Positions 1,165-22,705 of a stretch of 22,705 bases of DNA are shown here, one piece after another (position 1 is the first letter of the stretch; each line of letters begins with the position of its first letter). Origin of the DNA: an uncultured Planctomycetaceae bacterium (GTDB taxonomy: Bacteria; Planctomycetota; Planctomycetia; Planctomycetales; Planctomycetaceae); assembly GCA_903823545.1 (NCBI GenBank), contig CAIJTL010001327.1:1-22705 (forward strand), given 5' to 3'. The notes under the pieces are model-generated. The model saw only the letters and a list, made by a program, of their open reading frames with translations, was not told the origin of the DNA and searched no databases. The translations under genes were made by a program, and so were the position numbers.

Positions 1165-1217
1165 GTTGGACTCCTGACATCGTTATTGCTGCGTTTGACG
1201 CTTCTGCCGCGAGATTT

Positions 1218-1271: not shown

Positions 1272-1318
1272 TTACGGACGTTAGTTCGGACGCTCCTGAA
1301 ATCCAAACACGGTATTGG

Positions 1319-1346
1319 TTGTGACGACATCGGCAACGCCTACAAT
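1319..1346 (+). promoter_or_regulatory. Possible promoter of the superoxide dismutase gene
   Basis: TTGTGA (1319-1324) and TACAAT (1341-1346) are separated by 16 nt and resemble a sigma70-type -35/-10 pair (4/6 and 5/6 matches). A transcript from here would have a leader of about 120 nt before the ATG at 1473. Planctomycete promoters are poorly defined, so this is a weak call. Confidence 0.22.
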
Positions 1347-1472
1347 GCCCGCCGTCGTGGTGGCGGCTGTCATGGCCGTCTCCGGGATTTGGTCGAGTGG
1401 TTTGCTCGACGTTTTCACAAGCCATCGTGTCACGCATGATTGCGTTCGCACGAATGTCACAGGAGTTTTGTC

Positions 1473-2090
<618 letters not shown>

Positions 2091-2137
2091 TCGTGTTGTC
2101 TGATTGCACGATTAGAAAACCGTGCTACGAAAAACTG

Positions 2138-2176
2138 AAGCCCGGGCTTCGTCAGGAAGACCGGGCTTTTTTCTTT
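2138..2176. terminator. Intrinsic terminator, probably bidirectional
   Basis: AAGCCCGG (2138-2145) pairs with CCGGGCTT (2161-2168), with an inner CTTC/GAAG pairing. On the plus strand it runs straight into TTTTTTCTTT, closing the superoxide dismutase gene. On the minus strand the same stem is followed after three bases by TTTTT (AAAAA at 2131-2135 on plus), so it can also end the tad operon that converges from the right, whose last stop lies 50 nt away. Confidence 0.85.
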
Positions 2177-2225
2177 GAGTTGAGCTTACGGAGCATGTCG
2201 GTTACGTAAACGTGGCGTTACCAAA

Positions 2226-3593: not shown

Positions 3594-3656
3594 GATTGAA
3601 ACCGTCGCCAACAATCGCTGGTTGAAATGGAAGACCTACCTGAAGTTTCTCGTTCG

Positions 3657-4520: not shown

Positions 4521-4533
4521 AAGGGCGACCCTT
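4521..4533 (-). promoter_or_regulatory. Hairpin over the tadB ribosome-binding site
   Basis: On the minus strand AAGGG-TCG-CCCTT sits immediately before the tadB ATG. The only Shine-Dalgarno-like bases (AGGG, 8 nt from the start) are the left arm of this perfect 5-bp stem, so folding would hide them. This may lower or regulate tadB translation. The stem is short and could be chance. Confidence 0.35.
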
Positions 4534-4583
4534 GGTTACTTTAGATTTCATCTCAAAACTTCGATTACTCATACCTGTCGCGT

Positions 4584-5915: not shown

Positions 5916-5978
5916 GATTTCGCTCCTCGTTTCAACGGGCTTCGCTGTTGAGCCAGTCGAAACGATTTTTTAAGGCGA

Positions 5979-5999
5979 GCGGCTCAGTTCGTGAGCCGC
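5979..5999 (-). other. GC-rich hairpin spanning the tadG-like stop codon
   Basis: Perfect 8-bp stem GCGGCTCA / TGAGCCGC with a 5-nt loop. On the minus strand it covers the last codons and the stop of the tadG-like gene, 64 nt before tadA starts. No T-run follows (the downstream minus strand has an A-run), so it is not a classical terminator. It could be a processing, stability or partial-attenuation element between the front and back halves of the operon. Confidence 0.5.
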
Positions 6000-7327
6000 A
6001 ATTTGTAGAGATATCGATTTCCAGTGACGCTGTGAGATTCATTGGTCAATGAGTGGCTCGTAAGACCTGTTGCCCCAGAGACCTCAGAACTGACAACAGC
6101 CGACCGGCTGGTCATGACTGTCGGTTGTAAGACAAACTCCACGATATCTTCTGAGATCTCCGTCGCGGACATCACTCGACCAGCGACAAATCCTATGCAG
6201 TTCAGTTGTGCGACTTCCGAGTTTGAACCGACGTCGGCTCGATCGTAAAGCAAACAAATCCGTGGTTGTCCGATGACCTGCCGTAATGATTCACCAACAG
6301 TTCCGGCATCAACACCGCGTAGGCCAGTCAACGCCAGCGTCCCGTTATTCAACAACAATTCGCCATCAAACGGCTCAAGGTCGCGAGCAGACCATCCTTC
6401 ATTAATTTGATAATGCAATTCGTTGTTAGTGAGGTCGGTTCGTAGTCCGACCAAGAATGCATTTCCGTCGGGCGTCTTACTTCTGGGGGAGACCGTACGC
6501 AAAATAATTTCAGGAATACCATCCGCCTCTTCGCTCACCGTCCCGTCGATCGAATCAAACGCGAAACGATCATTACCTCGTCTCTGCTCGATATCACGCT
6601 TCCAATTCGGCATTGGCAACGGATCGGTGGTCTTTGGCTCTTCAAGGGTTGTGGCCGAGTTCGATTGATCGAAAGTGTTTGGTTTTCTTGGCTTTTGCTT
6701 GGCGGGAACTCCATGAGTAACAGCATCTGCCAAAATAGCGATGGGAAGAGTGGGGACAGCAAGGTAATCCACAGAGCGAATACCAATGATGTGGTTATCC
6801 AGTGTCGCTTCGGCGATCGCGACAACGTCTGCTGTATTAGGGCCAACCAAAGTGCGAAATGGCAAATCGACTGGCCATTGACGGTCGTTAGTTCGTCGAG
6901 CGCTCACGACAACGGTGGTCGGATTGTCGTCCGTCTCGATGAAGAGGCTCTCGCCCGTTGATTCGTCGAACGTCAATTGTCCCACGCGCACATCGCCATC
7001 GTCATCGGTGTTGAGCAATAGTGGCTCGCCGATTGCGAAGTTTTCAGCAGCGATGCGTGCTGCGGCTAGGCGTGCTTTCACAACTCGGGACTGTTGATTG
7101 TGTGACGTTCGCAACAGGTCATCGTTCGCAAGCTCTCGGCCTGCGGCTAAGGCCGCAGCTTCGGCAGCAGTTCTCAGTTCGGTGTGAGCGGTATCCAGCC
7201 ACAGGCGATCAACAACAAGTGCTGCGCCTCCTAAAATGGCGACGAGCGCCACTGCGATAGCTGGCATCATGCTGCCAGTTCTCGCCGACGCTCGTTGCTT
7301 CGAGTTGAACCGGGGAAGGTGTCGCAT
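5984..7327 (-). CDS. TadG-like protein with N-terminal Flp-assembly (TadE/G-like) segment
   Basis: A 447-aa protein with a short basic N-terminus and one membrane helix at about 20-40. The segment MMPAIAVALVAILGGAALVVDRLW is followed by TAHTELRTAAEAAALAAGREL, the pattern of the putative Tad-like Flp pilus-assembly N-terminal domain found at the front of TadG. The remaining 380 residues should lie outside the cytoplasm and contain a beta-rich region, a Pro/Lys/Thr-rich linker near 205-240 and no von Willebrand A MIDAS motif (DxSxS) that I can find. It lies between cpaB and tadA, 87 nt and 68 nt away. The start has no clear ribosome site but gives a normal N-terminus. A pilus-associated role follows from the domain and position; exact function is unknown. 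Confidence 0.75.
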   Translation of the reverse strand: MRHLPRFNSKQRASARTGSMMPAIAVALVAILGGAALVVDRLWLDTAHTELRTAAEAAALAAGRELANDDLLRTSHNQQSRVVKARLAAARIAAENFAIGEPLLLNTDDDGDVRVGQLTFDESTGESLFIETDDNPTTVVVSARRTNDRQWPVDLPFRTLVGPNTADVVAIAEATLDNHIIGIRSVDYLAVPTLPIAILADAVTHGVPAKQKPRKPNTFDQSNSATTLEEPKTTDPLPMPNWKRDIEQRRGNDRFAFDSIDGTVSEEADGIPEIILRTVSPRSKTPDGNAFLVGLRTDLTNNELHYQINEGWSARDLEPFDGELLLNNGTLALTGLRGVDAGTVGESLRQVIGQPRICLLYDRADVGSNSEVAQLNCIGFVAGRVMSATEISEDIVEFVLQPTVMTSRSAVVSSEVSGATGLTSHSLTNESHSVTGNRYLYKLRLTN

Positions 7328-7414
7328 CGGAGGCTGTCACGAGGTTTGTTCAGGGGAGAGGGTTTGTAAAAAACTCAGGTTCAATCCATCAGTGGCAACT
7401 CACGAACCGTTGTC

Positions 7415-8671
7415 TTAATCGCGGAACGCAGTCGGACCTCGGGTCTTCGGCGTTGCTCTTAAGATCGAACTTGTGCGCGACCGAATACCTCGTTGAGCAG
7501 TTCCAGGAGTTGATGCGGGAATGTCTGGATCAGCAGAGGGCTCAACGGAGTCAGTAGGTGCAGCTGCGTCTTGTCCACCTCCGGGTGACACAAAGACGTC
7601 CGCTGGATCGAAATCATCTCCACCGGTCGCACCGCCCCATCCTCCATTCCTACCGTTGTAGTCATAGGGATCAGAGTAGCTGTTGCTTCCCCAGTAAGTT
7701 CCGCCGCCTGCCCCACCGCCACCTGCGCCGCCAGTACCAGCACCGGACCCCGCGGGCCAGTCGCGAGTTCGGGAGTAACCTCCCCCAATTCCTAGGCCGG
7801 CATTCGCGCTACCGTCCCACTTCTTGCCGTTCTTATCCCACTGAGCGGAGCCTCCACGAATGCCCTTGAATGACTCGGTGACGAAGGGCTTTTCCGGTTC
7901 TGGCCCGTTCTCCTGTTTTTTAGTCACAGGCTTCTTGATTCCTAAAACTTCCCACAATGTCGCTCGGTCTGCGTTGCTAAGTGCGACCCCGCCATCACCT
8001 TCACCTGTCGGACTATAGGTGAGTGAAAGAGTTCCCTTAGGTTGAGTCACTAAAACCACATTGGTCTGTGCTGGGGCAAGTTCTAGGGTGACCGAGTTAC
8101 CGGTTGCTAATACTGGCCCTTGTCGAAAGTTCTTATTAAGAGCCAGAACTTTAACTCCCTTAAACAATGTCATGCTTACGCCACCCAAACGACCAATACG
8201 GGGATCAAGAATGTTGGCCGCTTGGTTGTCGAGAGTGAAATGGACGTCGACATAATCTCCCGGCTTCACGAGGCCGTCCACCATTTCTGCGGAGTTCTTT
8301 ACCGGAATCGAAATCGCTTGCTTTCCTTCGGTGACTGTAAGCGGTGCGTTCTCGCCGGGTTCGTAGAGTTGGGCGCCACGTAGCGGGCTACCAGCTTTGA
8401 TGGCTTCCTTTAAAACACGGCCGACAATGACTCGCTCGCTCCGGAGCATGTCTTCCTTAAGTTCGGCCTCAGGCCAAGGACCCATGCCGATGTGTTCGCG
8501 AGTAATCTTTGTGCCGGGCGAAAGGTTTCCAGTTGCCATCGGAATGGTCACGCGTCTTGGACGCTCAACCTTCTTTTCAACGGCGAACAATCCTCGGACG
8601 ACATAAATTCCGATCAAGCCCGTCACGGCCAACAGCATCAGCATGGTGACTTTTGCCGGAGTGAGTTTCAC
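7415..8671 (-). CDS. cpaB: Tad pilus protein CpaB/RcpC with SAF domain and Gly-rich tail
   Basis: A 418-aa periplasmic protein anchored by one N-terminal helix (about 8-28). A SAF domain follows (about 42-103, with TGNLSPGTKITREHIG and GRVLKEAIKAGSPL), then the RcpC/CpaB domain (about 105-245, with AISIPVKNSAEMVDGLVKPGDYVDV). These are the hallmarks of CpaB/RcpC, which stabilises the secretin channel of the Flp pilus. Residues 246-418 are an unusual disordered tail: charged, then Gly-rich with Trp/Tyr/Asn (about 290-350), then Pro/Ser/Asp-rich. Family members usually end soon after the RcpC domain. It begins with GTG, supported by a strong AAGGAG 7 nt upstream. It follows tadE by 28 nt. Confidence 0.93.
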   Translation of the reverse strand: MKLTPAKVTMLMLLAVTGLIGIYVVRGLFAVEKKVERPRRVTIPMATGNLSPGTKITREHIGMGPWPEAELKEDMLRSERVIVGRVLKEAIKAGSPLRGAQLYEPGENAPLTVTEGKQAISIPVKNSAEMVDGLVKPGDYVDVHFTLDNQAANILDPRIGRLGGVSMTLFKGVKVLALNKNFRQGPVLATGNSVTLELAPAQTNVVLVTQPKGTLSLTYSPTGEGDGGVALSNADRATLWEVLGIKKPVTKKQENGPEPEKPFVTESFKGIRGGSAQWDKNGKKWDGSANAGLGIGGGYSRTRDWPAGSGAGTGGAGGGGAGGGTYWGSNSYSDPYDYNGRNGGWGGATGGDDFDPADVFVSPGGGQDAAAPTDSVEPSADPDIPASTPGTAQRGIRSRTSSILRATPKTRGPTAFRD

Positions 8672-8699
8672 TGCTGATTCTCCTTCTTCTCTATCCGAG

Positions 8700-9125
8700 T
8701 TATTCTCGGATCATACATGTTTCCGACAACAAAGGGCGTCCTTGCAAGCTATAGCCAATTGGCCATAACAAATCGGGAGCTGCTGATGCCATGTCAACAG
8801 TTACCGATACGGCAACAACATCCCCCGAACGCTCGCCAAGCATTGCGTCTATCTTTAATGACTGGTGAAATCGAGGATGTAAGATTTTGCGAACTTCATC
8901 CTCAATGTCTTGTTGACTGACCCCTGGTAGTGTCGCTTTTCTCGCGGCGACGCGGCTTGCTTCGACGACTTCGCCTCTAGCAAAAAACAACAAGGTGAAT
9001 TCAAAAAGCCCGGTGAGAATGAGCAGCAGAATGGGCAAAGTCAGGACCAACTCCATGCTGAGCACACCGGAGCGAAGCCGCTTTGGCTTTAAGAGAGAGC
9101 TCAGCTTGGGCTGGGAGCGTTTCAT
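8700..9125 (-). CDS. tadE: TadE-like pseudopilin
   Basis: A 141-aa minor pilin-like protein. A basic N-terminus (KPKRLRSG) leads into a hydrophobic helix at about 22-48. Gly20 followed by VLSME puts Glu at +5 after a possible prepilin cleavage site, as described for Tad pilins and the pseudopilins TadE/TadF. TadV, encoded just upstream, is the likely processing enzyme. The C-terminal part (about 60-141) is a small soluble domain with a beta-strand-rich segment VVAVSVTVDM. Length is normal for TadE. No good ribosome site is visible before the ATG. It lies 46 nt after tadV and 28 nt before cpaB. Confidence 0.88.
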   Translation of the reverse strand: MKRSQPKLSSLLKPKRLRSGVLSMELVLTLPILLLILTGLFEFTLLFFARGEVVEASRVAARKATLPGVSQQDIEDEVRKILHPRFHQSLKIDAMLGERSGDVVAVSVTVDMASAAPDLLWPIGYSLQGRPLLSETCMIRE

Positions 9126-9171
9126 GGATTGTTTTTTGCCGACTGCTTTAGTCTGTGAATTGAACGGCTTT

Positions 9172-9735
9172 TTAAAACTTTGGAAACTTTGGCAGTTTGT
9201 ACAACACGATCAACCAAGTGGCTAAAGCGACCGGAGGGGCATAGCCCATGACTCGTCGCCTCGCTCGCTGACCGGCGGTTTCTGCCGCTATCGGCGAGTC
9301 ACTGTTCGCTACATAAGTTTCTTTTGTGCGATAAAGGCCTTTGGTGACCGCACTGACGAGCATTGCTCCGATCGTTCCAAGAATTACGAGGATCGTGCTC
9401 AACACCAGCACAAAACACGTCAACTTAAAGCCGATCCAGACGCTCAATGCGCCCATCAACTTAACGTCACCACCACCGCCACCACCGATCATCCACAGCA
9501 CCCAAAGCAGTCCAAAACCTGCCATGAACGCCGCTGCTGCATCGATCAATCCAGGTGACCCGATTCCGCTTCCCAATTGATTGAAGATCAACTGATAGAG
9601 AATGCCAGCACCAAAGAATGGCAGAGTCAGTTTGTTTGGAATTTTCTTAACGCGGATGTCCATGATCGCGGCAGATGCAGTGAAGACACCAACTGCGACC
9701 AAAAACACGACCAATTGTGGGCTGATTTCGACCAT
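9172..9735 (-). CDS. tadV: Prepilin peptidase TadV/CpaA (A24 family)
   Basis: A 187-aa polytopic aspartic peptidase that removes the short leader from Flp prepilin and the TadE/TadF pseudopilins at the cytoplasmic face of the membrane. The two catalytic aspartates of the type IV prepilin peptidase family are visible: Asp26 in AAIMDIRVKKIPN and Asp90 in the GxGD motif (GGGGGGDVKLMGA, with an expanded run of glycines). There are about five to six hydrophobic segments and no N-terminal methylase/zinc domain, as is usual for TadV/CpaA. The start is supported by GAGGA 6 nt upstream. As the first gene of the operon it lies next to the divergent control region. The C-terminus is loop-rich (about 135-165) and ends with a last helix. 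Confidence 0.95.
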   Translation of the reverse strand: MVEISPQLVVFLVAVGVFTASAAIMDIRVKKIPNKLTLPFFGAGILYQLIFNQLGSGIGSPGLIDAAAAFMAGFGLLWVLWMIGGGGGGDVKLMGALSVWIGFKLTCFVLVLSTILVILGTIGAMLVSAVTKGLYRTKETYVANSDSPIAAETAGQRARRRVMGYAPPVALATWLIVLYKLPKFPKF

Positions 9736-11039: not shown

Positions 11040-14000
11040 GTGTTTCTTGGAACATTTGCTTGCCACACTGCGAGCCAAATCATGCCCTCTCATTGGCCCC
11101 ATTTTGATCAAAGAGTGCTCGCGCAAGCGGGGCGATATCGACGATTCGTTCTGTCTAACCCACTTTGGGGGCTAATGTGTGTTTTCATTTCGTTGTCTTG
11201 TGGATTCTTTTTTCCTCAGGAAGTGGCAGCTCAGGGCACGACAGACGCGAAATCGTTAGCTAGCGATAAACCAACTGGGGCGACGCTAACAGCACCTCCC
11301 GTCAAGAGCGGCGTTCAACCATCGGTCGATGACGTTATTGATTTGTTGGGAGCTGATGGGCAACTTCGCCGGATACCGCGATGGGCCAACTTCGAGGTGT
11401 TTGAGAAGTGGTTGAAGTCGCGTGAGAAAGGGATCGGCCCGATTGCGCCTCCCTATAGCTTCAGCAGCACTTCGTTTCAGGGAGAAGTGGAGGCCAACGA
11501 CGAAAATGCAACGTTGAATACCACGTTGATTATTTCGCTCAACTCAGATGACAGTGATGTCTTGGTTCCGCTGAAATTGAACGAAGCGACGCTCATGAAG
11601 TTTGAGCACATTGGCGCGGGAGGCATACAGTTTGAAGAGTCTGATCGCGATGCCGGGTATCGCTGTTGGCTTAGGGGAAAAGGTCAGCATGAGTTGAAGC
11701 TGACATTGTCAGTGCCGATGCGAAAGCAGGGTGCCACACGACGTGTTCTGCTAAGTCTGCCAACATCTCCCGTCAATGAATTCAAGTTGAGCGTTCCGCT
11801 CCCTAAGGTCTCGGCAAAGGGGCCTGATCGCAGTGTTGTAACGACGAAAGCAATTGACAACGGCCGCTCGGAAATTCACGCTAACTGGTTAGGAAATCTG
11901 CTCGATCTTAGTTGGCAATCAGTGACCGATGTGTCCGAGGCGAAGCCTGAATTGCAAGCAATCACTGTCATTTCAACAGATCTCAGAGCTGACTCGTTAA
12001 TTCTGGAGGCCACACAGACGATCGGTTCGATTCAAGGGACATTCGAGCGTCTGACAGTTCGCTTGCCTGCCGAGTTTGAGTTTCTCGAAGTCGTAGGTCG
12101 CGAGGTTAAAGACTCTCAACCTGTACCCGGTTCGCCGACGCGGCGGATCGTCAACTTGCTGGCGCCGACATCAGGACAAGTAGAACTCAAATGGACGTTG
12201 TCGGCAAAGATTCCGGCCAATGTGACGTCGCTGCCAGCGATCGAAGGATTTGACGTTGAAGAGGCGCGACGCCAAACCGGTGTGATTCCTGTGATGACCT
12301 GGGATGGCGTGACTCTTCGTAAACGCGACGGTGAGGATCGATTTCTTCATCCTGGAGGGCTGAACGATCTCCGTGATGCTCCAGGGTTTTCTACCCCAAC
12401 GGGGAATAACGGCATTACGATGGTTTATCGTTTTCTCAAACAACCATTCCGCCTGCTCCTGGATGTCCAAAAGATCGAGCCTTACTTCTCTGTTGAGCCA
12501 TTACACGTGGTTCGGCTTAGTCAGGGGCAAGCCGAGCTAGAGACAAAGCTCAAAACGAAAATCTATCGCGGATCACTGAACGAAGTTCTGTTGTCATGGC
12601 CGGGATATTCCACAGAGGGCTGGGAGGCCGTTTCGTCAACGACACCGGAATTAGTTGAGAAAGTCGCAGTCGAAGAAACTCCGACGGGCAGTGCAATCCG
12701 AATCCATCTGGTAGATCGCAAGGGGAGGTCAGATGGTGAATTTGAAATCCAGTTAAAAGCGAGGCGAACAATCCCAACCGACGGCAAAGGGACGGAATTT
12801 AGATTGTCACTTCCGTTCATCGCCGCTAGCGGACAGCGGACCTCCAAAGTGATTGTGGCGCCGGCCGGGAATTTGGAAGTTGAGTGGACTCCGGTTGATT
12901 CCTCCGTGTCTCGACCGATGACTCCTGACGTCGAGGTCTTAGACATCTTGGAATCGACGCGGACTGTTACTGCTTGGCGATGGGAATCTGGATCACCATT
13001 GTTTGTGGCTAAAGCCAAGGTGCAGCAGCAATCAATCAAAACGGAATCAATTAGCGAATTGACGTTTGATTCACGTACTGTTGGGGCGTCGCAGCGAATC
13101 ACTTATGACGTCGCGTTTGAGGCGCTCAATCAAGTTCGCTTAATGATCCCTCGGACGATCATGGATCGAATGAAGATCCATCTCCGAGAAGCATCCGGCA
13201 ATTCAAAGCAGCTTACTCCAATTTTCACCGGGTTGGAAATCGATCAATCGCGACAGTGCCGATTGCAATTTGAGCAACCTCAATTGGGCAAGATTGACGT
13301 TGTCGTTGAATTTGAAATGGACCGTCCAAATGACTCTGGAAGCGACGACTCCGCAGTCATCAATGTGCCGATCGTTCAGTCATCGGATTCTGATTTCACT
13401 TCGACACGAATCAAATGGAAAACTGGAGAGAAGCTCACGGCGACATTGGAGGACAATTCGTGGAAGCCTGAGTTGCCTGAACTGTCTGCGGGCAAAACCT
13501 CGCTCTGGAAGGTGACCGGGGCAAAAAACGCCGTAGCGGTTAAAGTTGGTTCGGCAGCGGAGCTTGCGCTGCAAGATTTCACAGTTCATAGTGCATTGAT
13601 CCGGACAGTGATCAACGAAGGACCGTGGCGGACTCAGGCGATGTTTGAGCTTGATCGCGATGTGCGTGAGGTGAGTCTATTTTTGCCGCCGGAAATCTCG
13701 CCGCAAGATTTTCAGGTTTGGTGGAATCAGAAACGAGTTGTCCCTGGTGTCAGAACGAGCCCCGCAGGGGAAGTCGAGCTTCGATTGAAGCTGCCGTACA
13801 CACGAGACCGATCGAAAAAAACAGACAGTAGCGATGTCAAAGAAAAACCGCATTTGGCATTGTGGATTGATTACTCCTCAAAACAGCCAACCCGATTTCG
13901 TGGCAGCAATGAGCACCGAATTTTTGTTCCCAATTTTGCACCAACCGTATGGGTTGCGCAATCGATCTGGGAAATTGTGCTGCCACCGGGTCAACATCTA

Positions 14001-14627
14001 TTAACGGCTCCACGTGATTACGCCCCGCAGTTTCATTGGACAAGGTCATTCCTCTTTTGGAGCCGCGTCTCGAACTACAGCGATGACCGGGTCAAAGCTG
14101 AGTTGAATAATGCTGCTCCGCGAACCGAAAACTTGCGTTCCTCGGAAATGCGTCTGACCGAGCAAGCGGATGGCAATGTTTACTCAGTGAGTTGCTTTGG
14201 TCCGCCGCAACCTCTCGCCTTTTGGACAATGAGTCGATCGGCGGTTGTTGGATGTGGAGCTGGGTTAGCGTTACTGCTTGGTTTTTTGTTGATTCGTATT
14301 CCAGCGACACGCCACGTCCTAACATTTTTCGTGATCGGTTTCGGAATGAGTTTGATGGCACTCTGGTTCGCCGAGCCGGTTAAGGTTTTGTTGCAGCCGG
14401 CAATTCTCGGGGCTGCAATGGCGGTTGTTGCAGCGGTCATTGATCGCGTTGGCCGTCGTGAGCAGCCGACACCTCTGATGACTCTGTCATCACCAAGTGA
14501 CTTTTACGCCTCCGGTTCATCGGTTGCACCCATTGGCGGGGGCGTTAGTCCTGACGCACCGACCGTTGCTCCGCACGTCATCCGAAGTGAACCGATTTCT
14601 GCATCCGGTTCAGGGGCTCGCGGATGA
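11040..14627 (+). CDS. Giant exported beta-rich membrane protein, function unknown (1195 aa)
   Basis: Not recognised as a named family. From the GTG at 11040 there is a hydrophobic segment at about 42-59 ending in EVAAQG, which looks like a signal peptide. About 1000 residues of alternating, beta-strand-rich sequence follow, without enzyme motifs. Three membrane helices lie near 1065-1087, 1092-1111 and 1114-1134, and a Gly/Ser/Pro-rich tail of about 60 residues should be cytoplasmic. The charge pattern (ATRH and DRVGRRE inside) fits an extracytoplasmic ectodomain. The ATG at 11082 is an alternative start that shortens the N-terminus by 14 residues; neither has a good ribosome site (GGAGG at 11017-11021 is 18 nt before the GTG). 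The stop overlaps the next start as ATGA. The overall plan recurs in the N-terminal half of the next protein. Confidence 0.85.
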   Translation: MFLGTFACHTASQIMPSHWPHFDQRVLAQAGRYRRFVLSNPLWGLMCVFISLSCGFFFPQEVAAQGTTDAKSLASDKPTGATLTAPPVKSGVQPSVDDVIDLLGADGQLRRIPRWANFEVFEKWLKSREKGIGPIAPPYSFSSTSFQGEVEANDENATLNTTLIISLNSDDSDVLVPLKLNEATLMKFEHIGAGGIQFEESDRDAGYRCWLRGKGQHELKLTLSVPMRKQGATRRVLLSLPTSPVNEFKLSVPLPKVSAKGPDRSVVTTKAIDNGRSEIHANWLGNLLDLSWQSVTDVSEAKPELQAITVISTDLRADSLILEATQTIGSIQGTFERLTVRLPAEFEFLEVVGREVKDSQPVPGSPTRRIVNLLAPTSGQVELKWTLSAKIPANVTSLPAIEGFDVEEARRQTGVIPVMTWDGVTLRKRDGEDRFLHPGGLNDLRDAPGFSTPTGNNGITMVYRFLKQPFRLLLDVQKIEPYFSVEPLHVVRLSQGQAELETKLKTKIYRGSLNEVLLSWPGYSTEGWEAVSSTTPELVEKVAVEETPTGSAIRIHLVDRKGRSDGEFEIQLKARRTIPTDGKGTEFRLSLPFIAASGQRTSKVIVAPAGNLEVEWTPVDSSVSRPMTPDVEVLDILESTRTVTAWRWESGSPLFVAKAKVQQQSIKTESISELTFDSRTVGASQRITYDVAFEALNQVRLMIPRTIMDRMKIHLREASGNSKQLTPIFTGLEIDQSRQCRLQFEQPQLGKIDVVVEFEMDRPNDSGSDDSAVINVPIVQSSDSDFTSTRIKWKTGEKLTATLEDNSWKPELPELSAGKTSLWKVTGAKNAVAVKVGSAAELALQDFTVHSALIRTVINEGPWRTQAMFELDRDVREVSLFLPPEISPQDFQVWWNQKRVVPGVRTSPAGEVELRLKLPYTRDRSKKTDSSDVKEKPHLALWIDYSSKQPTRFRGSNEHRIFVPNFAPTVWVAQSIWEIVLPPGQHLLTAPRDYAPQFHWTRSFLFWSRVSNYSDDRVKAELNNAAPRTENLRSSEMRLTEQADGNVYSVSCFGPPQPLAFWTMSRSAVVGCGAGLALLLGFLLIRIPATRHVLTFFVIGFGMSLMALWFAEPVKVLLQPAILGAAMAVVAAVIDRVGRREQPTPLMTLSSPSDFYASGSSVAPIGGGVSPDAPTVAPHVIRSEPISASGSGARG

Positions 14628-17600
14628 TGTGGCGTCATTTAGGATCAAACAGCTGGCGCGAATGGTCGGACGTTGTACGTCATCCGCGATGGCTCATTTC
14701 ATTGTCACTGTTTTGCTTTGCAACGTTCTTTTTTTGCATGTGTTCGAGAACGGTTGCGGAAGATACGTCGCTCAAAATTCGACATGTCTTCGTACCAACG
14801 GATAAAGCCAATGATTGGCCCAAGGGTGAGTTTGAAGGTTACTATGAGCCTGTGCCTTTTGCTGAATACGAAGAGTTGCGTTCCGTGTTTCAGGGTAAAC
14901 GACACGAGCGAAATTGGGCTCACATTCCCTGGCAATCACTGAGTGCCACGTTTGATCCAGGGCGAGGTGTGTTGACAGATGGCCGATGGACTGCAGAAGT
15001 TCGGAGCGACAATCCGAAGCCTCAGTTGATGTCGCTCGAACCACTTGACCTCCCGCTGTCGGAGTTACGTTGGACTGATGGCGATGCAGTTTGGGGGACC
15101 TCGCCGTCAGGCGAAGCATTACTTCGTGTAGAAAAACGCGAACGGCGTCTTGAGGGGACTTTCTCACGGCAAGGAAGGCATCTACAACGAACGTGGCAAT
15201 TTCCACTGCGGCTCGCTTCGGCAACAGTGTCTGAGTTGAAGCTGCGTGTTCCTTCCAGATTTTCTGTGAAGTGTTCGGCAGGAACCTTGCGTGGTCCGCT
15301 ATCGACTGGTGAAGAAGGATGGCGAACGTGGTTGCTTAACTTAGGGAGTCAGTCACGATGCGATCTCTTGGTGAGCGAATCACCCATGACAGTGACGACT
15401 GAACCCGTCGTTGTGTACGACCAAGTTTCCTCATACAGCTTGCGAGAAGCTGAGGTTGAGGTGCAGTTTGAAATAAACGCAGAAATATTTCACACGCCGA
15501 AAGCGACTCTGAGCTTTGCAGTGCCAGATGACTTGTCGGTTTACACGGTTGGGTTTTCAGGCGATTCGCGATTGAAGTGGCGAGAGTTGCCGCGCACGCC
15601 AGGGCAACCGCGTCATGTAGAAGTGATTCTACCGCAGCCACAAATTGGCAAAGTCCGCGCGCTGCAGATACTCGCGGGATCTGCAGCAAAGTGGGCGCCG
15701 ACATGGACGCTCCCGCGGATTATGTTGGCGGGAGGTTGGTTCAATGGTGGACGATGGAATGTTTCGGTGGATGCGCCCCTGGTCTGGAATGCGCTGCAAA
15801 CCAACGGACTCCGTTTGACGGAAGTTGATGTCAATACGCCCGATGTTCGGCGTTTGTCGTTCTCGCAATATCTCGCCGATGCGGCACTCGCACTTGATGT
15901 TTCCTATCCCGTGACTCGACTCTCAGCTCAAACTCTGCAACGGCTCACGTCGGACGAAAGCGGCTGGCGGTTGACGTTGGAGTGGCTGACACAATCAACG
16001 TCTGGAGTCAGTTACTCCACTCGATGCCGTGTCCCTGCGGGGTGGGAAATCTTAGATGTGCTTTCCATAAGTGACGCATCGTCATCCGAAGTTTTGCACT
16101 GGAACTTGATCACAGAAGCGTCAGGCGAACGAATTTTGGTTTGTGATTTTGCCTCGCCCTTAGAAGAGCGCTCGCCGCAGCGCATTAGGGTTGAGGCACA
16201 AAGGTCACGAAGTGTGAAAGAGGCCCATGAAGTTTTTGAATTGCCCACGCCACTCGAATGTTTGCACTCCGATCAACTCTTGGTTGTCACAGTTCCGAGC
16301 GGTTGGAAATGGGATACCGCCGATGATGCCGTACCTGCACCGGTTGCGATGAAGCGATTTGCAGATCCGTGGTCGACGTTCGAACTTTGGAAAGATGGGG
16401 CATCGAAATGGCGTGAGAACACTCTTTTGAGCCGGTCGGTTCAGAATAACACGCCACTGAAGCCGATCGCGGCCTTCGTTCTTGAGTCGACTGATCAAAA
16501 CGAACGATCCGCACCTGTCGGAGTCCAGGCATCACAGAAATCAAAATCGGCTGCGGGTGACTTGAGCGAGGGAGAAAATCCTATTCCGTCGACTCTGAAT
16601 CCTGCGGTGTCTGATACCGGTCTCACCAGCCCCGCGCTGGTATGGACGTCTGCCGAATTACGTTCACTGATCTTCCCCGGTGGCGATGGGGACGACATGC
16701 ATTGGCTCTCGCTGCGTGCCGCTGAGATAACTCGTGTGGGGAGGTTAGAGTTTGGACTTCCCACGCCGGCGGATTTGGTCTCAGTTCGCATGAATGGTGT
16801 TCGTACCGAAACCCAACAAAACGGTCGAACATTCCAATTGCCCTCAATCCCGCAGGGTGGTTTGCAGACGTTGGAGATTCAGTATCGCGTCCCGTCTGAT
16901 CGCGATTTCTTGCGGAATCGCGAGACGATCCCGATTCCGAGTTTGGAAGCTCCGGTGCTCGGATTTTACTGGCTCTTCGCATTGCCGCCAGAAGCCAGAA
17001 TCGCAGAGGAACCAGCCGGGTTAAGGCTGTTGCAACCGCTCGATCCAACACCGTGGATTCGTCGCCTATTCGGTCCGCTCGGTCGCGATGAGATGTCGAA
17101 TTGGTTCAATCCAATTTCACGTCGCTCCTGGAATGACTTGTGGGTTCCCACGCAATGGAAGGATCCACAATCGGACACTCCGGCAGCGTGGTTTGCACCA
17201 CGTGGATGGAGAGTCCGTGAAGCGTCCGCTCCATCGCTCCCAACGGCGATTACATGGGTCAGTTGGAACGCGGGGCAAGTCCGTATTCTTGCTTGGATCG
17301 GAATGCTGTTTAGCGCGACGATTGGGTGCATCATGCGTTGTCGGCAGACTGCCCCAAGAGTTCACATTGCAGCCGCTTGGTTAGGGGCCTGTGTTGTCGG
17401 AGTCGTATTGTCGTCGCCGGTTTATGCCGAAGGGCTTGGTGGGTGCTTGATTGGAACTGTAATCGCCGTACTTATTCCGCGTCGCCTACTAATGAGTTAC
17501 GCAACACGGCGCGAGGCATCTGCTCGCGGTGCGTTCGAGGTGACAGTCGCCGTTCAACGTGTTGTCGGAGTTATGTTGGTGTCACTCACGCTGGCCTTGG

Positions 17601-20600
17601 CTGCGTTTGCTGCTGACGAACCCGTGTCGCAGGCAACACCTCGAACGATCGACAATCGAGAGGCGATCAATCAGCGATTTGACGTTCTTATACCTGTGGA
17701 CGATCCGCGAGATGCGCTGGCGGAGTTCGTGCGACCGTCTGAAAAACTTCCAATGGCGTGGGTACCAACGCCCTTACTCGCCCGTTGGCGCGATCATCGT
17801 GTGCGTCTAACAAGTCCAGGGACACTTCTTTCTTCAGCTCAGTACAACGTCGAAGTCAAAGATCAGTTCGTCAGCGTGAAAGCCGAATACCTCATTCATC
17901 GCCTGATACCGGAACAAGCAGCGACTTTGTTGTTTCCGTTCGCCAATATCCCGCTCAGCGGGGCCAACGCCTGCCTGTTAGACGGTCAGCCGTATTCACA
18001 GTTCGCGTTAACAAACAATGGGACTTTGCAACTAGACCTTCCTCCTTTGGAGCCAGCGCAATCTGACGAGGGGATTGGCAAGGTGGTCACACAACGAGTG
18101 GCGTTTACCTTGCTCCCGCCGCTCACGGCCGAAGAGTCGGTCTCGCGATTAAAGTTGAGTCTCCCACCGCTTTTGAACAGTTCGATGACGGTTAAGCTCG
18201 GTACGAAAAGCGATCTGTCGTTTGATGGCCGAAAGGGTGAGGCTCTCATCGATACGTCAGGTGATGCATCATCTGCACGACTAGGAAAGATCACAGAGTT
18301 ATGGCTCGACATCCACAAGCCAGGAGTGACGCAAAATCGCCGTATGGCCGAAGTGAAAGTTGATGTGACTTGTTTCGCGGAATTGGCACCGACAGCCTTA
18401 AGGCAAAGGTATCGTGCTCGTTATTCCGTTGCCTCAGGCGAGGTGAATGACGTTACCTGGAATCTCCCACGCGGAGTCTTGCTGCGCGACGGAGATGTGC
18501 AAGCCGATGATCTCTTGCAGTGGTCAGTCGAGCCACTTGGCGACAACCGCCAGAAGCTTGTTATTGAATTCTCAAAACCACAGACCAATGAGTTCACCGT
18601 TGATGTCTTTGGTTTGCAGCCTCCTCTCGGAACGCCGGAACAACCACGCTGGGAGCCGTGGTCAGTTGAGTCGCCCCCGGATGAACCAAGTAAATCGGGA
18701 AGCGGCGCGAAGCTCAAGCTGGGCGTCACGAGCCTACCTGGATTCAAGGTGACCATGCAGTCTTTGAATGCTGATCAGACAGTGCCAATGACTGAGGCGG
18801 CGTTCGCGAAAAGCTGGGTCAATGCCGTAGTTCCTAAGCAACCGCAAGTTCTATTGCAGCTATCCAAGCCGGTTGAATTGTTATTCCAAGTTGCCCCGAT
18901 TGTGTCTCAGCGGAAAGTTCGCCAAGAGTTGTTGCTTAGGTTGGGACGTAAATCGTTTGAGTGGGAGTTGTATGCCGAAGTAACAACAACCGGTGCCGCC
19001 GCGTTTCAACATGAGTTGGTGCTCTCGCCACAGTTTCGCGTGGATGCGGTGAAAGTGACCGAAGACGAAGCCGAGCGACTTTTGAGTTGGGCAATGAACG
19101 ATCAACGACTGACATTGTTCTTGCGGAGTGAGACGACTGGTATCCAAAACATTTTCCTGCAAGGCAAAGATGCGACCCCTGCCGACGGACGTCTGACAAT
19201 TCCCACACGTTGGCTCGCCGATGCCGAGTTGAGTGAATTCAGTGTGCGAGTGACTCACGATCCTGAATGGCAGGCTCAGGTTTTTGGTGACCGCGATGAG
19301 CCGCTCGCACCAGTCGAAGTCGGTAGTCCAATTCCAGATCGTCCGGAGCTGTTCCTTGGAAAGTTTCGCGCGAAGCCGGGTGGAGAAGCACTCGCTTTGC
19401 AACTGACGCCACATCAAGCCGCTGGCTCAGCAGAAGCGTGGACAGTGATTGCGCCGACGACAAGTGAGTCTTGGATGGGGCGGCATATCGAGCGACTGAT
19501 CGATCGAGGCCAGATCACAGCTCGAATCTTTTGGCCCACAGCTTGGCAAGCGACAGGAACTTTACGTCTGTCATCATCGCTCAAAGAATTAGCCCGCCGT
19601 TCGTTGCCGGACGGGTTTGAGCTAACGGTGCAGTCGATTGAAGGAAGTGATGCTCCTCGCGAGCTGTACTTTGAGTCCGCGATTCCCCTCAAAAACGCTG
19701 CGGCTATTAGGCTCTCGCCACCGTCAGCATTGGATATGGGGGAACGATCACATCAATGGCTCTTTGCCAACGAGCTGTCTTCATGGTTGGCCGTCCCCAA
19801 TGATGGCCAACCAGTTCGCGACTTAACGGTGTTGCCTGAAACTGTGAGTAAGCTGTTGTCAATTACAACCAAGAGTTGGCTTTTGTTATCGGCGACTGCT
19901 TCGACGATAGACCTCCGTCAACCAGATCCGACAAAAGCCGCGCCAACTCCCAAGCTGGCTTGGACGGACACGGCTGTCTGGGTTGCAGATGGAGCCATTA
20001 CCCAGGGGCGAACTTGGTTTTTGTTGCAACCGAGCGGTATGCGCGAATTCGCCATTCATCGTCCTGATGGGATCCATTGGACTGCGGCATTCATTAACGA
20101 TCGCCTGCAGGTGCTTCCCCAGGAACCGAATCTTGATTTGAAGATTGCGGAGATCCCCAGCGAACCACTGGTTTGGATTTCAATCTTTTGGCAAGTTGAT
20201 CCAACATCGAGCGATCGCATTGTGGCTCGGCGAGACGTGCAGTTGCCAATGCCAATCGATGCAAAACTCGTATCTCCAATACACGACATGTCACTAATTT
20301 CTGTTGGAAACAGCGAGGTCTCGTCAACGCGAGGTGCTCGGCGCGTTCAAGATTGGGATGGCCGTCTCTCGCGAGCTTCACACATCCTCCGCAGCTTACA
20401 ACTGGATCCGAAAGCCACGCGAGGGCCAATGCGGCGATTATGGAACTTGGTCCAAACAGACCTCAACGAATCGCGACGAGTGATCGACCAACTCCCCCCA
20501 GATGTTGGCTTCGGTAACTCGGCCCGCGAACAACTGCAATCAACAACGGCTGACTACGAGTCTCTCAAAGCTCGCAATCAACAGCTCGGACTCGAGAATG

Positions 20601-21004
20601 CAACCAACAATGGGGTGAAAGGAAATAGTACAGGAGCCGGTAGCGGAAATGACGCAGTGACCTGGGCGAGCGATGCTTGGTTACAAGTCCCCAGTTCATG
20701 GAATGCCGTAGCTGATGCTGATCAGTCCGCAAAACTTTCCGTCATTGTCGTGGATCGCCGTTGGTTGACATGGACGCTAGCTGTTTTAGCCATCATTGGT
20801 GTGATCCCCTTGTTGCGCACGTGGCTCCGTTGGCAAACCGGCGAATGGCTCGCGCGCCACCCGAATTTGGCATGGTCGCTCCTCGCCATCATCTGGTGGA
20901 CCTGTCTCGCCCCCAGCATCGTTGGCTTCGGCCTGCTGGTCCTCGCAGCCCTCACCGCACTTCGTCAGCGCCAATATGGAGGCGTGGTCTCGCAGATCGA
21001 TTGA
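14624..21004 (+). CDS. Giant two-part exported membrane protein, function unknown (2126 aa)
   Basis: Not recognised as a named family. It starts by ATGA overlap with the previous gene; a second in-frame ATG follows directly. Layout: signal-like helix 24-41; beta-rich ectodomain to about 880 with a Ser/Pro/Gly linker near 630-680; three helices near 886-904, 913-930 and 938-951; basic loop PRRLLMSYATRREASAR; a fourth helix 977-997 ending AAFAAD like a signal peptide; a second beta-rich ectodomain about 1000-1900; a helical charged stretch about 1930-1990; C-terminal helices near 2046-2065 and 2082-2112 (the latter long enough for two). Basic loops fall on one side throughout, so both ectodomains should face outward. 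Residues 1-957 parallel the full 1195-aa protein, suggesting a fusion. No catalytic motif seen. Confidence 0.88.
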   Translation: MMWRHLGSNSWREWSDVVRHPRWLISLSLFCFATFFFCMCSRTVAEDTSLKIRHVFVPTDKANDWPKGEFEGYYEPVPFAEYEELRSVFQGKRHERNWAHIPWQSLSATFDPGRGVLTDGRWTAEVRSDNPKPQLMSLEPLDLPLSELRWTDGDAVWGTSPSGEALLRVEKRERRLEGTFSRQGRHLQRTWQFPLRLASATVSELKLRVPSRFSVKCSAGTLRGPLSTGEEGWRTWLLNLGSQSRCDLLVSESPMTVTTEPVVVYDQVSSYSLREAEVEVQFEINAEIFHTPKATLSFAVPDDLSVYTVGFSGDSRLKWRELPRTPGQPRHVEVILPQPQIGKVRALQILAGSAAKWAPTWTLPRIMLAGGWFNGGRWNVSVDAPLVWNALQTNGLRLTEVDVNTPDVRRLSFSQYLADAALALDVSYPVTRLSAQTLQRLTSDESGWRLTLEWLTQSTSGVSYSTRCRVPAGWEILDVLSISDASSSEVLHWNLITEASGERILVCDFASPLEERSPQRIRVEAQRSRSVKEAHEVFELPTPLECLHSDQLLVVTVPSGWKWDTADDAVPAPVAMKRFADPWSTFELWKDGASKWRENTLLSRSVQNNTPLKPIAAFVLESTDQNERSAPVGVQASQKSKSAAGDLSEGENPIPSTLNPAVSDTGLTSPALVWTSAELRSLIFPGGDGDDMHWLSLRAAEITRVGRLEFGLPTPADLVSVRMNGVRTETQQNGRTFQLPSIPQGGLQTLEIQYRVPSDRDFLRNRETIPIPSLEAPVLGFYWLFALPPEARIAEEPAGLRLLQPLDPTPWIRRLFGPLGRDEMSNWFNPISRRSWNDLWVPTQWKDPQSDTPAAWFAPRGWRVREASAPSLPTAITWVSWNAGQVRILAWIGMLFSATIGCIMRCRQTAPRVHIAAAWLGACVVGVVLSSPVYAEGLGGCLIGTVIAVLIPRRLLMSYATRREASARGAFEVTVAVQRVVGVMLVSLTLALAAFAADEPVSQATPRTIDNREAINQRFDVLIPVDDPRDALAEFVRPSEKLPMAWVPTPLLARWRDHRVRLTSPGTLLSSAQYNVEVKDQFVSVKAEYLIHRLIPEQAATLLFPFANIPLSGANACLLDGQPYSQFALTNNGTLQLDLPPLEPAQSDEGIGKVVTQRVAFTLLPPLTAEESVSRLKLSLPPLLNSSMTVKLGTKSDLSFDGRKGEALIDTSGDASSARLGKITELWLDIHKPGVTQNRRMAEVKVDVTCFAELAPTALRQRYRARYSVASGEVNDVTWNLPRGVLLRDGDVQADDLLQWSVEPLGDNRQKLVIEFSKPQTNEFTVDVFGLQPPLGTPEQPRWEPWSVESPPDEPSKSGSGAKLKLGVTSLPGFKVTMQSLNADQTVPMTEAAFAKSWVNAVVPKQPQVLLQLSKPVELLFQVAPIVSQRKVRQELLLRLGRKSFEWELYAEVTTTGAAAFQHELVLSPQFRVDAVKVTEDEAERLLSWAMNDQRLTLFLRSETTGIQNIFLQGKDATPADGRLTIPTRWLADAELSEFSVRVTHDPEWQAQVFGDRDEPLAPVEVGSPIPDRPELFLGKFRAKPGGEALALQLTPHQAAGSAEAWTVIAPTTSESWMGRHIERLIDRGQITARIFWPTAWQATGTLRLSSSLKELARRSLPDGFELTVQSIEGSDAPRELYFESAIPLKNAAAIRLSPPSALDMGERSHQWLFANELSSWLAVPNDGQPVRDLTVLPETVSKLLSITTKSWLLLSATASTIDLRQPDPTKAAPTPKLAWTDTAVWVADGAITQGRTWFLLQPSGMREFAIHRPDGIHWTAAFINDRLQVLPQEPNLDLKIAEIPSEPLVWISIFWQVDPTSSDRIVARRDVQLPMPIDAKLVSPIHDMSLISVGNSEVSSTRGARRVQDWDGRLSRASHILRSLQLDPKATRGPMRRLWNLVQTDLNESRRVIDQLPPDVGFGNSAREQLQSTTADYESLKARNQQLGLENATNNGVKGNSTGAGSGNDAVTWASDAWLQVPSSWNAVADADQSAKLSVIVVDRRWLTWTLAVLAIIGVIPLLRTWLRWQTGEWLARHPNLAWSLLAIIWWTCLAPSIVGFGLLVLAALTALRQRQYGGVVSQID

Positions 21005-21285
21005 TGAGTACCGAGTCCGGAAGCCGGTACTTTCAGTTGCGTTTGTCGTCGGCGTCGCGCGAACTGCGAATCACGGTCAGTCCGCGACAATCGGAAGGGA
21101 TGAGTGTTCTGCGGAGCGAACTCGCGCTTGTCGGGCACAACGGTCGCAAGCTCTGCCAAGTGCCCCTTAACCGTCAGGGGCACGAATCTGCTCTTTGTAT
21201 TGAACTGCCAAGGGTTAGTGGCGTCAGAGTTGTATGCCGAACGACAAATGAATGGTTGCGTATGCCAAGATTAAAGAGGGAATGA
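21004..21285 (+). CDS. Small protein of unknown function coupled to the giant genes (93 aa)
   Basis: The ATG at 21004 overlaps the stop of the 2126-aa gene as TGATGA, so ribosomes ending there can restart here. The product has 93 aa, is basic, has no signal peptide or membrane helix, and shows alternating hydrophobic/polar residues (YFQLRLSS, ELRITVSP, ALCIELPR, GVRVVCRT), suggesting a small beta-sheet protein. The same frame is open further left inside the giant gene, but that part is a shadow. The stop-start overlap is the main support. It could be a cytoplasmic partner of the membrane proteins. Function unknown. Confidence 0.55.
   Translation: MSTESGSRYFQLRLSSASRELRITVSPRQSEGMSVLRSELALVGHNGRKLCQVPLNRQGHESALCIELPRVSGVRVVCRTTNEWLRMPRLKRE
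21160..21183. repeat. Perfect 8-bp hairpin inside the 93-aa gene
   Basis: GTGCCCCT (21160-21167) and AGGGGCAC (21176-21183) are perfect inverted arms around the loop TAACCGTC. No T-run follows. It lies within coding sequence, about 100 nt before the stop. It could be an mRNA structure or a repeat element that has become part of the gene. Confidence 0.35.
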
Positions 21286-21324: not shown

Positions 21325-21408
21325 ACGTCGTGCTGAGTTGCCCGCGCTGCGCCATTGTGAATGCGTACGATCGAACGGGCCGTTGGACAAGATTTAGGGA
21401 ACACTTCA

Positions 21409-21885
21409 ATGAAGTCATTCAAGATCAGGGAAATCGTAGCCGGATACTTAAGTCTGACATTCTTGTTGCTTGCTGGCTGTGGCGTGAGCGAAACAACTCC
21501 GCCGACTGGTCGCATGATTGATCGAACCACGACATCAGCAACGTCACCAGCACTCGTGGCCGCTTCCGAAGAAGTAAACGCTACGTTTCTTAAAGTGTCT
21601 CCTGAACTGGCCAGCGTTATTGACTCGAGGAACTCACTGTTGCGAACGGGAGTGATGAGTTCTGACAACAGCGAATTGCTTCGAGCCAGTGCCGCGTCCT
21701 ATCGGCAATCGCTGTTAACACTGCGTCGCAAGTTTTTTGATTTGGAATTAGCCGTCGGTGCTGAATCAGTAAAACGGCTGGTTGATTTCGTTATTTCACA
21801 GGGCTTGGTTCTGGCTCCTGAAGTGATGGCTGACATCGAATTGAATTCGTCGATGAGCGCCTTTTCCATGTCTCGCGAGTCATGA
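21409..21885 (+). CDS. Small lipoprotein of unknown function (158 aa)
   Basis: A basic N-terminus (MKSFKIREI) and hydrophobic stretch end in the lipobox LLAGC with Cys24 as the lipidated residue, so the protein should be exported and membrane-anchored. The mature part has a Thr/Ser-rich linker (about 29-50) and then a mostly helical region (about 50-145) with KVSPELASVIDSRNSLLRTG and SYRQSLLTLRRKFFDLELAVG. I do not recognise a family. The start at 21409 was chosen over an in-frame ATG 48 nt upstream because AGGGA lies 8 nt before it and it gives a proper signal sequence. The stop overlaps a following ATG as ATGA. Same strand as the giant operon and the kinase. Confidence 0.75.
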   Translation: MKSFKIREIVAGYLSLTFLLLAGCGVSETTPPTGRMIDRTTTSATSPALVAASEEVNATFLKVSPELASVIDSRNSLLRTGVMSSDNSELLRASAASYRQSLLTLRRKFFDLELAVGAESVKRLVDFVISQGLVLAPEVMADIELNSSMSAFSMSRES

Positions 21886-22187
21886 CGTTGCGGAATCCCG
21901 CCAATTGGAATGTTGACTCGGTCCAGGTGTCAGCCCTTGTCGCGGTCGATACCTTATCGCCTGATTGGATCGGACGGATTCTGGTGTGGGCCGAGGAACA
22001 TTCTGATGCTGCGAGTCGAATCACTCGACGACTTCGTTGCGCTTTTGGAACGGAGCAATTTGCTTTCCGAGGAAAATCGTTTGGACTTATGGGACGCGGC
22101 GAACGGCCTGAAGTCAGCGATAGAATTGGCAGATTGGCTCGTGAATCAACGCTGGCTGACGAAGTGGCAAGCGACGCAATTGCTTGA
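21882..22187 (+). CDS. Doubtful ORF between lipoprotein and kinase (101 aa)
   Basis: It opens with an ATGA overlap on the lipoprotein stop, which is the only positive sign. About 40 codons lie in otherwise empty sequence and look coding-like (WNVDSVQVSALVAVDTLSPDWIGRILVWAEEH), but the last 60 codons lie over the 5' end of the kinase in another frame and look like shadow sequence. It may be a small gene overlapping the kinase, the remnant of a frameshifted gene, or chance. No family recognised. Confidence 0.2.
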   Translation: MTLRNPANWNVDSVQVSALVAVDTLSPDWIGRILVWAEEHSDAASRITRRLRCAFGTEQFAFRGKSFGLMGRGERPEVSDRIGRLARESTLADEVASDAIA

Positions 22188-22705
22188 TGGACATGAGCAA
22201 CTTCACATCGGCGAATATCGGTTGCTGGAACTCATCGGTCGTGGCGGTATGGGTTTGGTCTTCAAAGCCGAGCACACGACTTCGCAGAAAATCGTCGTGA
22301 TGAAAGTGATGAGCCAGTTGGGGAACATCAAAGGGATTCGGCGATACGTTCAAGAAGTTCGAGCGACATCGGCTCTCAGTCATCCGCATATAGTGACGAC
22401 GCTCGATGCCGGATTTGCGGACGGCTGCCATTACATCGTCATGGACTATCTTCCCGGACGCGATTTGAATGCGATCGTCCTCAGCCAATCGCCACTGTCC
22501 GTCAGTTGGTCTTGCGAAGTGATTCGGCAAGTCGCATCAGGACTGCAACACGCTCATGAGCAAGGACTCGTGCATCGCGACATCAAACCGTCGAATATCT
22601 TGATCACTCCGGAGCCAGACTTTTTGACGCCACACTCCCGCATTTTAGACTTCGGTCTCGCTCGTATAGTTTCCGAGTCCGTCGACATTCGAGATGTGAC
22701 GCATA
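22006..22705 (+). CDS. Serine/threonine protein kinase, Pkn2-like (5' part, cut by window end)
   Basis: 233 codons are visible and the frame runs off the right edge. A short N-terminal domain (1-68) carries VESLDDFVALLERSNLLSEE and RWLTKWQATQLLDGHEQLHIG, a layout typical of planctomycete kinases. The kinase fold then begins: glycine loop GRGGMG (78-83), ATP-binding Lys100 (VVMKV), C-helix Glu117, catalytic loop HRDIKPSN (190-197) with Asp192, and DFG (215-217). All core residues present are intact, so it should phosphorylate Ser/Thr in proteins. Planctomycete kinases often continue into sensor or repeat domains after a membrane helix; that part is outside the window. The ATG at 22006 was chosen because GAGGA lies 8 nt upstream. 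It lies 120 nt after the lipoprotein stop. Confidence 0.93.
   Translation, partial: MLRVESLDDFVALLERSNLLSEENRLDLWDAANGLKSAIELADWLVNQRWLTKWQATQLLDGHEQLHIGEYRLLELIGRGGMGLVFKAEHTTSQKIVVMKVMSQLGNIKGIRRYVQEVRATSALSHPHIVTTLDAGFADGCHYIVMDYLPGRDLNAIVLSQSPLSVSWSCEVIRQVASGLQHAHEQGLVHRDIKPSNILITPEPDFLTPHSRILDFGLARIVSESVDIRDVTH

Follow-up and report, generated by a model that had tools for sequence, protein, structure and literature searches.

Three homologous beta-domain units in a giant gene pair of Planctomycetota, and their possible link to ECF sigma regulation

Ribophorin I/Ost1 carries two tandem beta-domains resembling the N-terminal domain of M1 aminopeptidases (M1-N-like) outside the membrane, followed by one membrane helix and a cytosolic domain, and a published search places OST1 in eukaryotes and in TACK and Asgard archaea (PMC11417166). 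Here we describe a pair of adjacent giant genes found in a 22,705-nucleotide stretch of DNA (the window) from an uncultured Planctomycetaceae bacterium. Their products, giant 1 and giant 2, are likewise predicted to expose beta-domains outside the membrane, some of them M1-N-like and possibly in tandem, but in longer chains, with three helices and with three units per operon, and they share no sequence match with ribophorin I/Ost1. The single helix and the cytosolic helical bundle of Ost1 were not found, the first unit (unit A) having three helices and a short tail of low model confidence.

Other described systems resemble the giants in part. M1 aminopeptidases (LTA4H, ERAP1, APN) differ from them by their zinc-binding HExxH motif and their Pfam family. 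Extracytoplasmic function (ECF) sigma factors are known in pairs with zf-HC2 transmembrane anti-sigma proteins, and in 8 distant loci that we fetched a pair of this sort opens an operon that continues with the giants; these differ from the usual pairs by the YfbK-type VWA domain of the anti-sigma-type protein and by its linkage to the giants, and the module was not detected at the window. The inter-alpha-trypsin inhibitor heavy chain (ITIH) pairs a VIT with a VWA domain. ITIH and the integrin alpha chains are beta-sandwich chains like the giants, which have a VWA partner in the ECF-linked loci, but in the giant operons the VWA domain lies on another protein, and the likeness is one of fold only. 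The internal thioester of alpha-2-macroglobulin (A2M) was not found in the window giants. In a look for essentiality data, a secretion-related locus, Plim_0401-0410, could not be tied to the giants from its description, and we make no claim about it (PMC10632474). Our literature search, weak because most subscription papers were outside its reach, found no description of the giant family. Both the domain fold and the type of regulator are familiar, but in the open literature searched we found no description of their combination, in which an operon has three homologous giant units, two of them fused, together with a coupled VWA anti-sigma protein.

Three homologous units in two genes

The two giants are homologous and consist of three copies of one unit, A in giant 1 and B and C in giant 2. 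Profile alignment with hhalign places residues 77-1117 of giant 1 on residues 54-951 of giant 2 with a probability of 100 and an E-value of 4.9e-39, and residues 92-1128 of giant 1 on residues 34-1112 of the second half of giant 2 with an E-value of 4e-42; the two halves of giant 2 align to each other with an E-value of 8.8e-26. By hydropathy each of the three units follows one plan, with a signal-like stretch first, then a long ectodomain and then clustered membrane helices, and the junction between the halves of giant 2 carries a further signal-like helix at residues 980-998. Giant 2 is most simply read as B fused to C, with this helix as what was once the signal peptide of unit C. In two distant loci, L096 and L114, units B and C are separate genes (open reading frames, or ORFs, of 1128, 1237 and 1138 aa, and of 1202, 1419 and 1387 aa, respectively); in both, the second gene prefers the B over the C profile and the third the C over the B profile, and all four of these proteins score best with the deeper A profile. 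The features of the pair are listed below, with coordinates of the window and with reference to AlphaFold2 (AF2) models where these were used.

11082..14627, + strand: giant 1 (unit A) of 1181 aa, in an ORF that is open from GTG 11040 (ORF, database copy, AF2 model)
11145..11228, + strand: signal-like hydrophobic stretch of unit A, residues 22-49 (hydropathy)
11325..14231, + strand: unit A ectodomain, predicted consecutive beta-domains (AF2 model, structure matches)
14235..14453, + strand: three-helix membrane bundle of unit A, residues 1052-1124 (hydropathy, AF2 model, conservation)
14454..14624, + strand: C-terminal tail of unit A, low model confidence (AF2 model, relatives' alignment)
14624..14627, + strand: ATGA overlap of the giant 2 start with the giant 1 stop (ORFs)
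14624..21004, + strand: giant 2, fused units B and C, 2126 aa (ORF, profile alignment)
14690..14746, + strand: signal-like stretch of unit B, residues 23-41 (hydropathy)
14756..17263, + strand: ectodomain of unit B, residues 45-880, with homology to unit A (hhalign, E 4.9e-39)
17279..17491, + strand: membrane helices of unit B, residues 886-956 (hydropathy)
17561..17617, + strand: internal signal-like helix of giant 2, residues 980-998, ending LALAAFAAD (hydropathy; separate B and C ORFs in L096)
20351..20584, + strand: helices inserted in unit C ahead of the final beta strands (unit C model)
20756..20998, + strand: three-helix membrane bundle of unit C (model; hydropathy for two of the three helices)

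The window lies on contig C1327 of a 7.23-Mb draft assembly (G000). Its first giant ORF encodes 1195 aa, and translation probably starts at ATG 11082, giving 1181 aa, because the database copy (P0002) has that length and fits this start. The original prediction for this stretch, made from its letters, had described an undescribed system of coupled giants of 1195 and 2126 aa with an ATGA overlap, and these ORFs were recovered at 11040-14627 and 14624-21004. It also held that both products are exported, rich in beta structure and terminated by membrane helices, in agreement with the hydropathy profiles and with the AF2 models of units A and C. An envelope system of coupled giants is well supported, the pair being conserved in many lineages; the homology of the giants and the mid-protein membrane cluster of giant 2 (residues 886-998 by hydropathy) had been missed. 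Among the window and 25 named loci, a start codon allowing a 4-nt overlap at the A-BC junction is available in 17 of the 26, and a 1-base overlap in 2 more.

The prediction had counted a second ATGA overlap, leading into a third coupled gene; this junction reads TGATG, a 1-nt overlap (TGA 21002-21004, ATG 21004-21006), and the ORF that it opens was rejected as a member of the system:

21004..21285, + strand: 93-aa ORF (protein search, tblastn, codon score)

Searched against 5.8 billion proteins, its product matches its own cluster only, and tblastn over the fetched loci returns the window's own copy (L002), the next match having an E-value of 0.079 across 22 residues. In the near relative L033, which shares 81-82% identity with the window in unit A and 79% in unit C, giant 2 stops at a different stop codon with no such ORF after it. 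The codon score of the 93-aa ORF, 0.002, is unremarkable beside those of the other frames of that stretch (-0.048 to 0.027), giant 2 scoring 0.068, the monophosphatase gene 0.052 and a following 174-aa ORF 0.034 on a reference table derived from the two giants themselves. A survey for conserved order of the three genes had been suggested; the order is conserved for the A-BC pair, and the 93-aa partner is not supported.

Two side observations concern the units. L103 (1394-16723) has three giants in a row, of 1210, 2714 and 1186 aa (the contig stops within the third), and represents an expanded operon. In distant families (L071, L081, L095, L096, L100 and others) the units start with a motif like [IV]Y[VI]PYxxLxxVFEKEGRGVFLPYxEFLxLW, which is missing or degenerate in the window's family.

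Predicted fold and sequence motifs

The AF2 model of unit A has a pLDDT (predicted local distance difference test score) of 80, falling below 50 in the tail. Its residues 122-281 and 831-1050 match M1 aminopeptidase N-domains, residues ~285-648 being barely covered, and residues 650-1052 match Ost1/ribophorin I. The models of units A and C both retrieve ribophorin I/Ost1, which ranks first for each, together with M1 N-domains, and the two units share their predicted fold and topology; the VIA-align coverage of the models falls mainly on the matched domains and on few other parts. Foldseek matches also include integrin alpha chains and A2M chains, with ITIH1 and integrins for unit A. The structure prediction suggested for the giants mapped them to no known complex, and it does assign a known domain fold, the M1 aminopeptidase N-domain as in ribophorin I.

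The most conserved segment of unit A is its membrane bundle, with a mean modal fraction of 0.61 versus 0.35-0.50 elsewhere. From the count of three helices the tail would be cytoplasmic; TLSSPSDF and D-x-P-T stretches are conserved in it among near relatives, and a phosphorylation or FHA-binding site in this tail (14454-14624) is conceivable, as a speculation.

In sequence searches, giant 1 has no Pfam match at an E-value of 0.1, neither giant scores above cut-off in Pfam or NCBIfam, a single-sequence search of solved structures returned no relative at an E-value of 1, and profile A3 found none among PDB sequences at an E-value of 10; profile A4 gave only weak PDB matches (best E-value 0.065), each of which falls within the helical part of unit C or close to it. 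A UreE_N match in giant 2 (E-value 0.0017, 18.3 bits for a cut-off of 26.9, weakly repeated in another scan) was taken as chance. Comparison of both giants with the PADLOC models gave no family at an E-value of 0.01, and an anti-phage defence system was rejected on this result. Neither window giant contains HExxH or matches an M1 Pfam family, and the one HExxH among 168 giant ORFs is chance-like. The CGEQ-like internal thioester motif of alpha-2-macroglobulin is absent from the window giants, the sole thioester-like hit in the 168 ORFs being CLEQ at residue 34 of one protein. On these motif scans a catalytic or thioester function was rejected, in line with the earlier remark that the giants show no enzyme motif.

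In a distant locus (L095:8697-17246), a BC giant of 2849 aa contains a squalene-hopene-cyclase-like domain above cut-off (best stretch 2360-2453), which sits in unit C where the window's unit C has inserted helices.

Conservation of the pair and the ECF sigma/VWA module

The protein database holds 57 matches to giant 1 and 38 to giant 2, the window's own included, whose names are hypothetical or uncharacterized only, apart from one fragment labelled phage holin. Profile A3 matches at least 102 of 294 genomes drawn from the phylum and at least 50 of the 154 genomes of higher quality (≥90% complete, ≤5% contaminated), and the narrower profile A1 finds at least 58 of the 294; at most two candidates were scored per genome, and the counts are lower bounds. 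Outside Planctomycetota, coverage consisted of protein, structure-sequence and named-genome searches.

The A-BC order is conserved in many planctomycete lineages. Among 31 named loci found via unit A alone, a giant comes immediately after unit A in 28, the DNA stops within unit A in 2, and 1 (L052) is unpaired despite having room; the second giant therefore follows the first in 28 of the 29 with room downstream, a figure that covers only these named loci, some of them mutually close (L046, L047). Over all loci 83 of 92 are paired, 5 are without room (L043, L045, L080, L121, L125) and 4 are exceptions (L052, L064, L069, L102), a rate biased by the hand-picking of loci L064-L103 and L112-L131 from the match lists, partly for adjacent matches. 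Six-frame ORFs were used for these comparisons because gene calls are noisy in high-GC loci. Given the 57 and 38 database matches and the 28/29 pairing, the giants are not chance ORFs. All 17 genomes of the window's family among the matches listed (its own included) give two A3 matches, which suggests a second paralogous operon. The second giant copy of the window genome lies on contig C1304 (L064), where a hydrophobic ORF of 115 aa at the contig end comes before a 1600-aa giant (3218-8360), and the two ORFs after the giant look by eye like the ATPase and the permease of an ABC transporter.

Outside the window's family, a YfbK-type VWA gene stands directly upstream of the giants in 10 of 43 loci (L069, L075, L081, L082, L100, L101, L102, L124, L125, L130), and it is preceded by an ECF-type sigma gene in all 8 that have further upstream DNA, the VWA ORF running to the contig end in L069 and L125. 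In Pfam scans, all 4 sigma proteins tested have Sigma70_r2 and r4; each of the 7 VWA proteins tested has VWA/YfbK domains, and 5 of them exceed the cut-off for zf-HC2. The L101 protein matches the NCBI anti-sigma model at an E-value of 9e-14, below cut-off. In 8 aligned VWA proteins the most hydrophobic stretch starts between residues 92 and 153, or at 304 in L130, where the ORF has an extended start, and the DxSGS of the VWA metal site is invariant. Short gaps or overlaps run throughout the ECF-linked operons, the VWA gene being separated from unit A by at most 49 nt or overlapping it, and in L082 and L101 each of the three junctions is a 4-nt overlap. Some distant lineages possess an operon with the order ECF sigma, transmembrane anti-sigma-type VWA protein, A and BC. 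Counted by eye from the match lists, at least 17 genomes from 11 families have a VWA match and a giant match close together on one contig, 16 within 400 nt and one at 3.3 kb.

Elsewhere in the neighbourhood, a gene of the inositol monophosphatase family (Pfam on the window's copy; cluster c1, 28 members) is found upstream in many family loci. A Tad/Flp pilus cluster on the minus strand (2226-9735), composed of two T2SSF proteins, a secretion ATPase, a TadG-like protein, RcpC/CpaB, TadE and a prepilin peptidase, diverges from the giants in the window, as it does in L033, L046, L047, L050, L054, L084, L085 and others. UppP (BacA), an HtrA-like PDZ protease and apolipoprotein N-acyltransferase (Lnt) occur near some loci, one member per cluster having been scanned. 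At the far end of the window (21361-22705), the predicted 174-aa ORF, lipoprotein-like and with no Pfam match, is followed by a protein start that runs off the window and reads by eye as a serine/threonine kinase. On another contig of the window's genome (C872, L132), positions 1024-3780 encode a VWA protein of the YfbK type (918 aa) whose N-terminus looks anti-sigma-like by eye; neither a giant nor a sigma gene was seen in the 4 kb covered. In L117 (10415-10981), a weaker ECF-type sigma match of 68 bits lies on the opposite strand, divergent from the giants and with no VWA gene beside it.

A model for the giant operon and its alternatives

We tentatively propose, with a probability of about 0.4, that the operon encodes an envelope complex of three homologous units (A and BC), acting as a non-enzymatic receptor or scaffold and linked to the VWA anti-sigma protein where this module is present. 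In each unit, beta-domains, some or all of which have the M1-aminopeptidase-N fold, would stand in a row outside the membrane on a helix bundle. Translational coupling would set the A:BC ratio at 1:1, and the membrane bundles would pack into one assembly held by these conserved segments; both the physical complex of A with BC and its stoichiometry are inferences. The ectodomains, as non-enzymatic elements for binding or spacing, would jointly form a large receptor or scaffold. In the ECF-linked lineages, the anti-sigma protein would contact the assembly through its VWA domain and, depending on the state in which the assembly is, would release or hold the ECF sigma factor. In the window's family, whose giant operon does not include the sigma module, the assembly would signal via unlinked partners or would keep the structural part alone.

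Several observations weigh against this model. The sigma and VWA profiles detect no module by the giants in 49 loci (the window, its family and the named set), and the signalling step is for that reason an extrapolation for the window; since the profiles derive from 3 sigma and 5 VWA proteins in the ECF-linked loci, unrelated regulators would be missed. Of the distant loci, 33 of 43 are without a VWA gene beside the giants, many with several kb of upstream DNA and six (L068, L083, L098, L116, L118, L131) with less than 1 kb. The VWA homologues of the window's genome sit on other contigs, zf-HC2 is below cut-off in the VWA protein of L102 and absent in that of L100, L052 has unit A without BC, and L069 and L102 have a single two-unit giant. 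Finally, the ECF gene in the operon may control expression only.

This last point leads to the rival that comes close in probability to the signalling reading and is itself a possibility short of an even chance, namely that the giants form a fixed envelope lattice, a spacer or an adhesin, the ECF/anti-sigma module, where present, controlling only their expression. The giants bear no catalytic signature, membrane-anchored beta-domain chains also retrieve integrin alpha chains, envelope genes (UppP, HtrA-like, Lnt, the Tad pilus cluster) lie near some loci, and 82 of 92 loci are without a VWA gene, all of which suits such a scaffold; that the most conserved segment is the membrane bundle and not the outer face, and that the VWA gene is so closely joined to unit A as to suggest a partner and not a regulator alone, speak against it. 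A bolder form of our proposal, in which three ribophorin-like giant units would make a trans-envelope receptor widespread in the phylum, whose ectodomains of tandem M1-N-like domains would work with the VWA domain of an anti-sigma factor, as the legs of integrins do with a VWA head, and turn force or ligand binding outside the membrane into ECF-sigma-dependent transcription, appears rather unlikely.

The rank of ribophorin I among the structural matches raises the idea of a secretion accessory, in which tandem M1-N-like domains would hold or guide exported polypeptides beside SecYEG. We find this improbable, since the root mean square deviation of ~15 Å over the domain pair means that the match is by domain, M1 N-domains alone score equally well, and profile A3 finds no PDB sequence at an E-value of 10; moreover, there are three helices and not one, with a tail in place of a cytoplasmic helical bundle, the matched pair of unit C (239-597) lies far from the membrane, and no translocon or oligosaccharyltransferase gene was found among the limited set of neighbours scanned. 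A degenerate protease or protease trap (an inactive M1 peptidase or an A2M-like protein) would account for the M1 N-domain fold, for the A2M chains among the Foldseek matches and for the squalene-cyclase-like alpha/alpha domain in unit C of the distant L095 protein; the window giants without HExxH, the misplaced CLEQ as the only thioester-like hit and the lack of any peptidase family match in the giants scanned make it less probable still. The least credible of all is a three-gene complex including the 93-aa protein, as first predicted, whose argument is the TGATG overlap with giant 2 and whose third gene is found neither by the giants of the nearest relative nor elsewhere and has the codon score of any other frame.

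In conclusion, our observations provide a first anatomy for a pair of giant genes, together ~10 kb, that lie side by side in many planctomycete lineages, and they identify in bacteria chains of predicted M1-N fold carried on multi-helix anchors. A testable candidate partner, the VWA anti-sigma protein, and a candidate output, the ECF sigma factor, are offered. If the signalling reading is true, the unusual envelope biology of the planctomycetes would be opened to direct tests.

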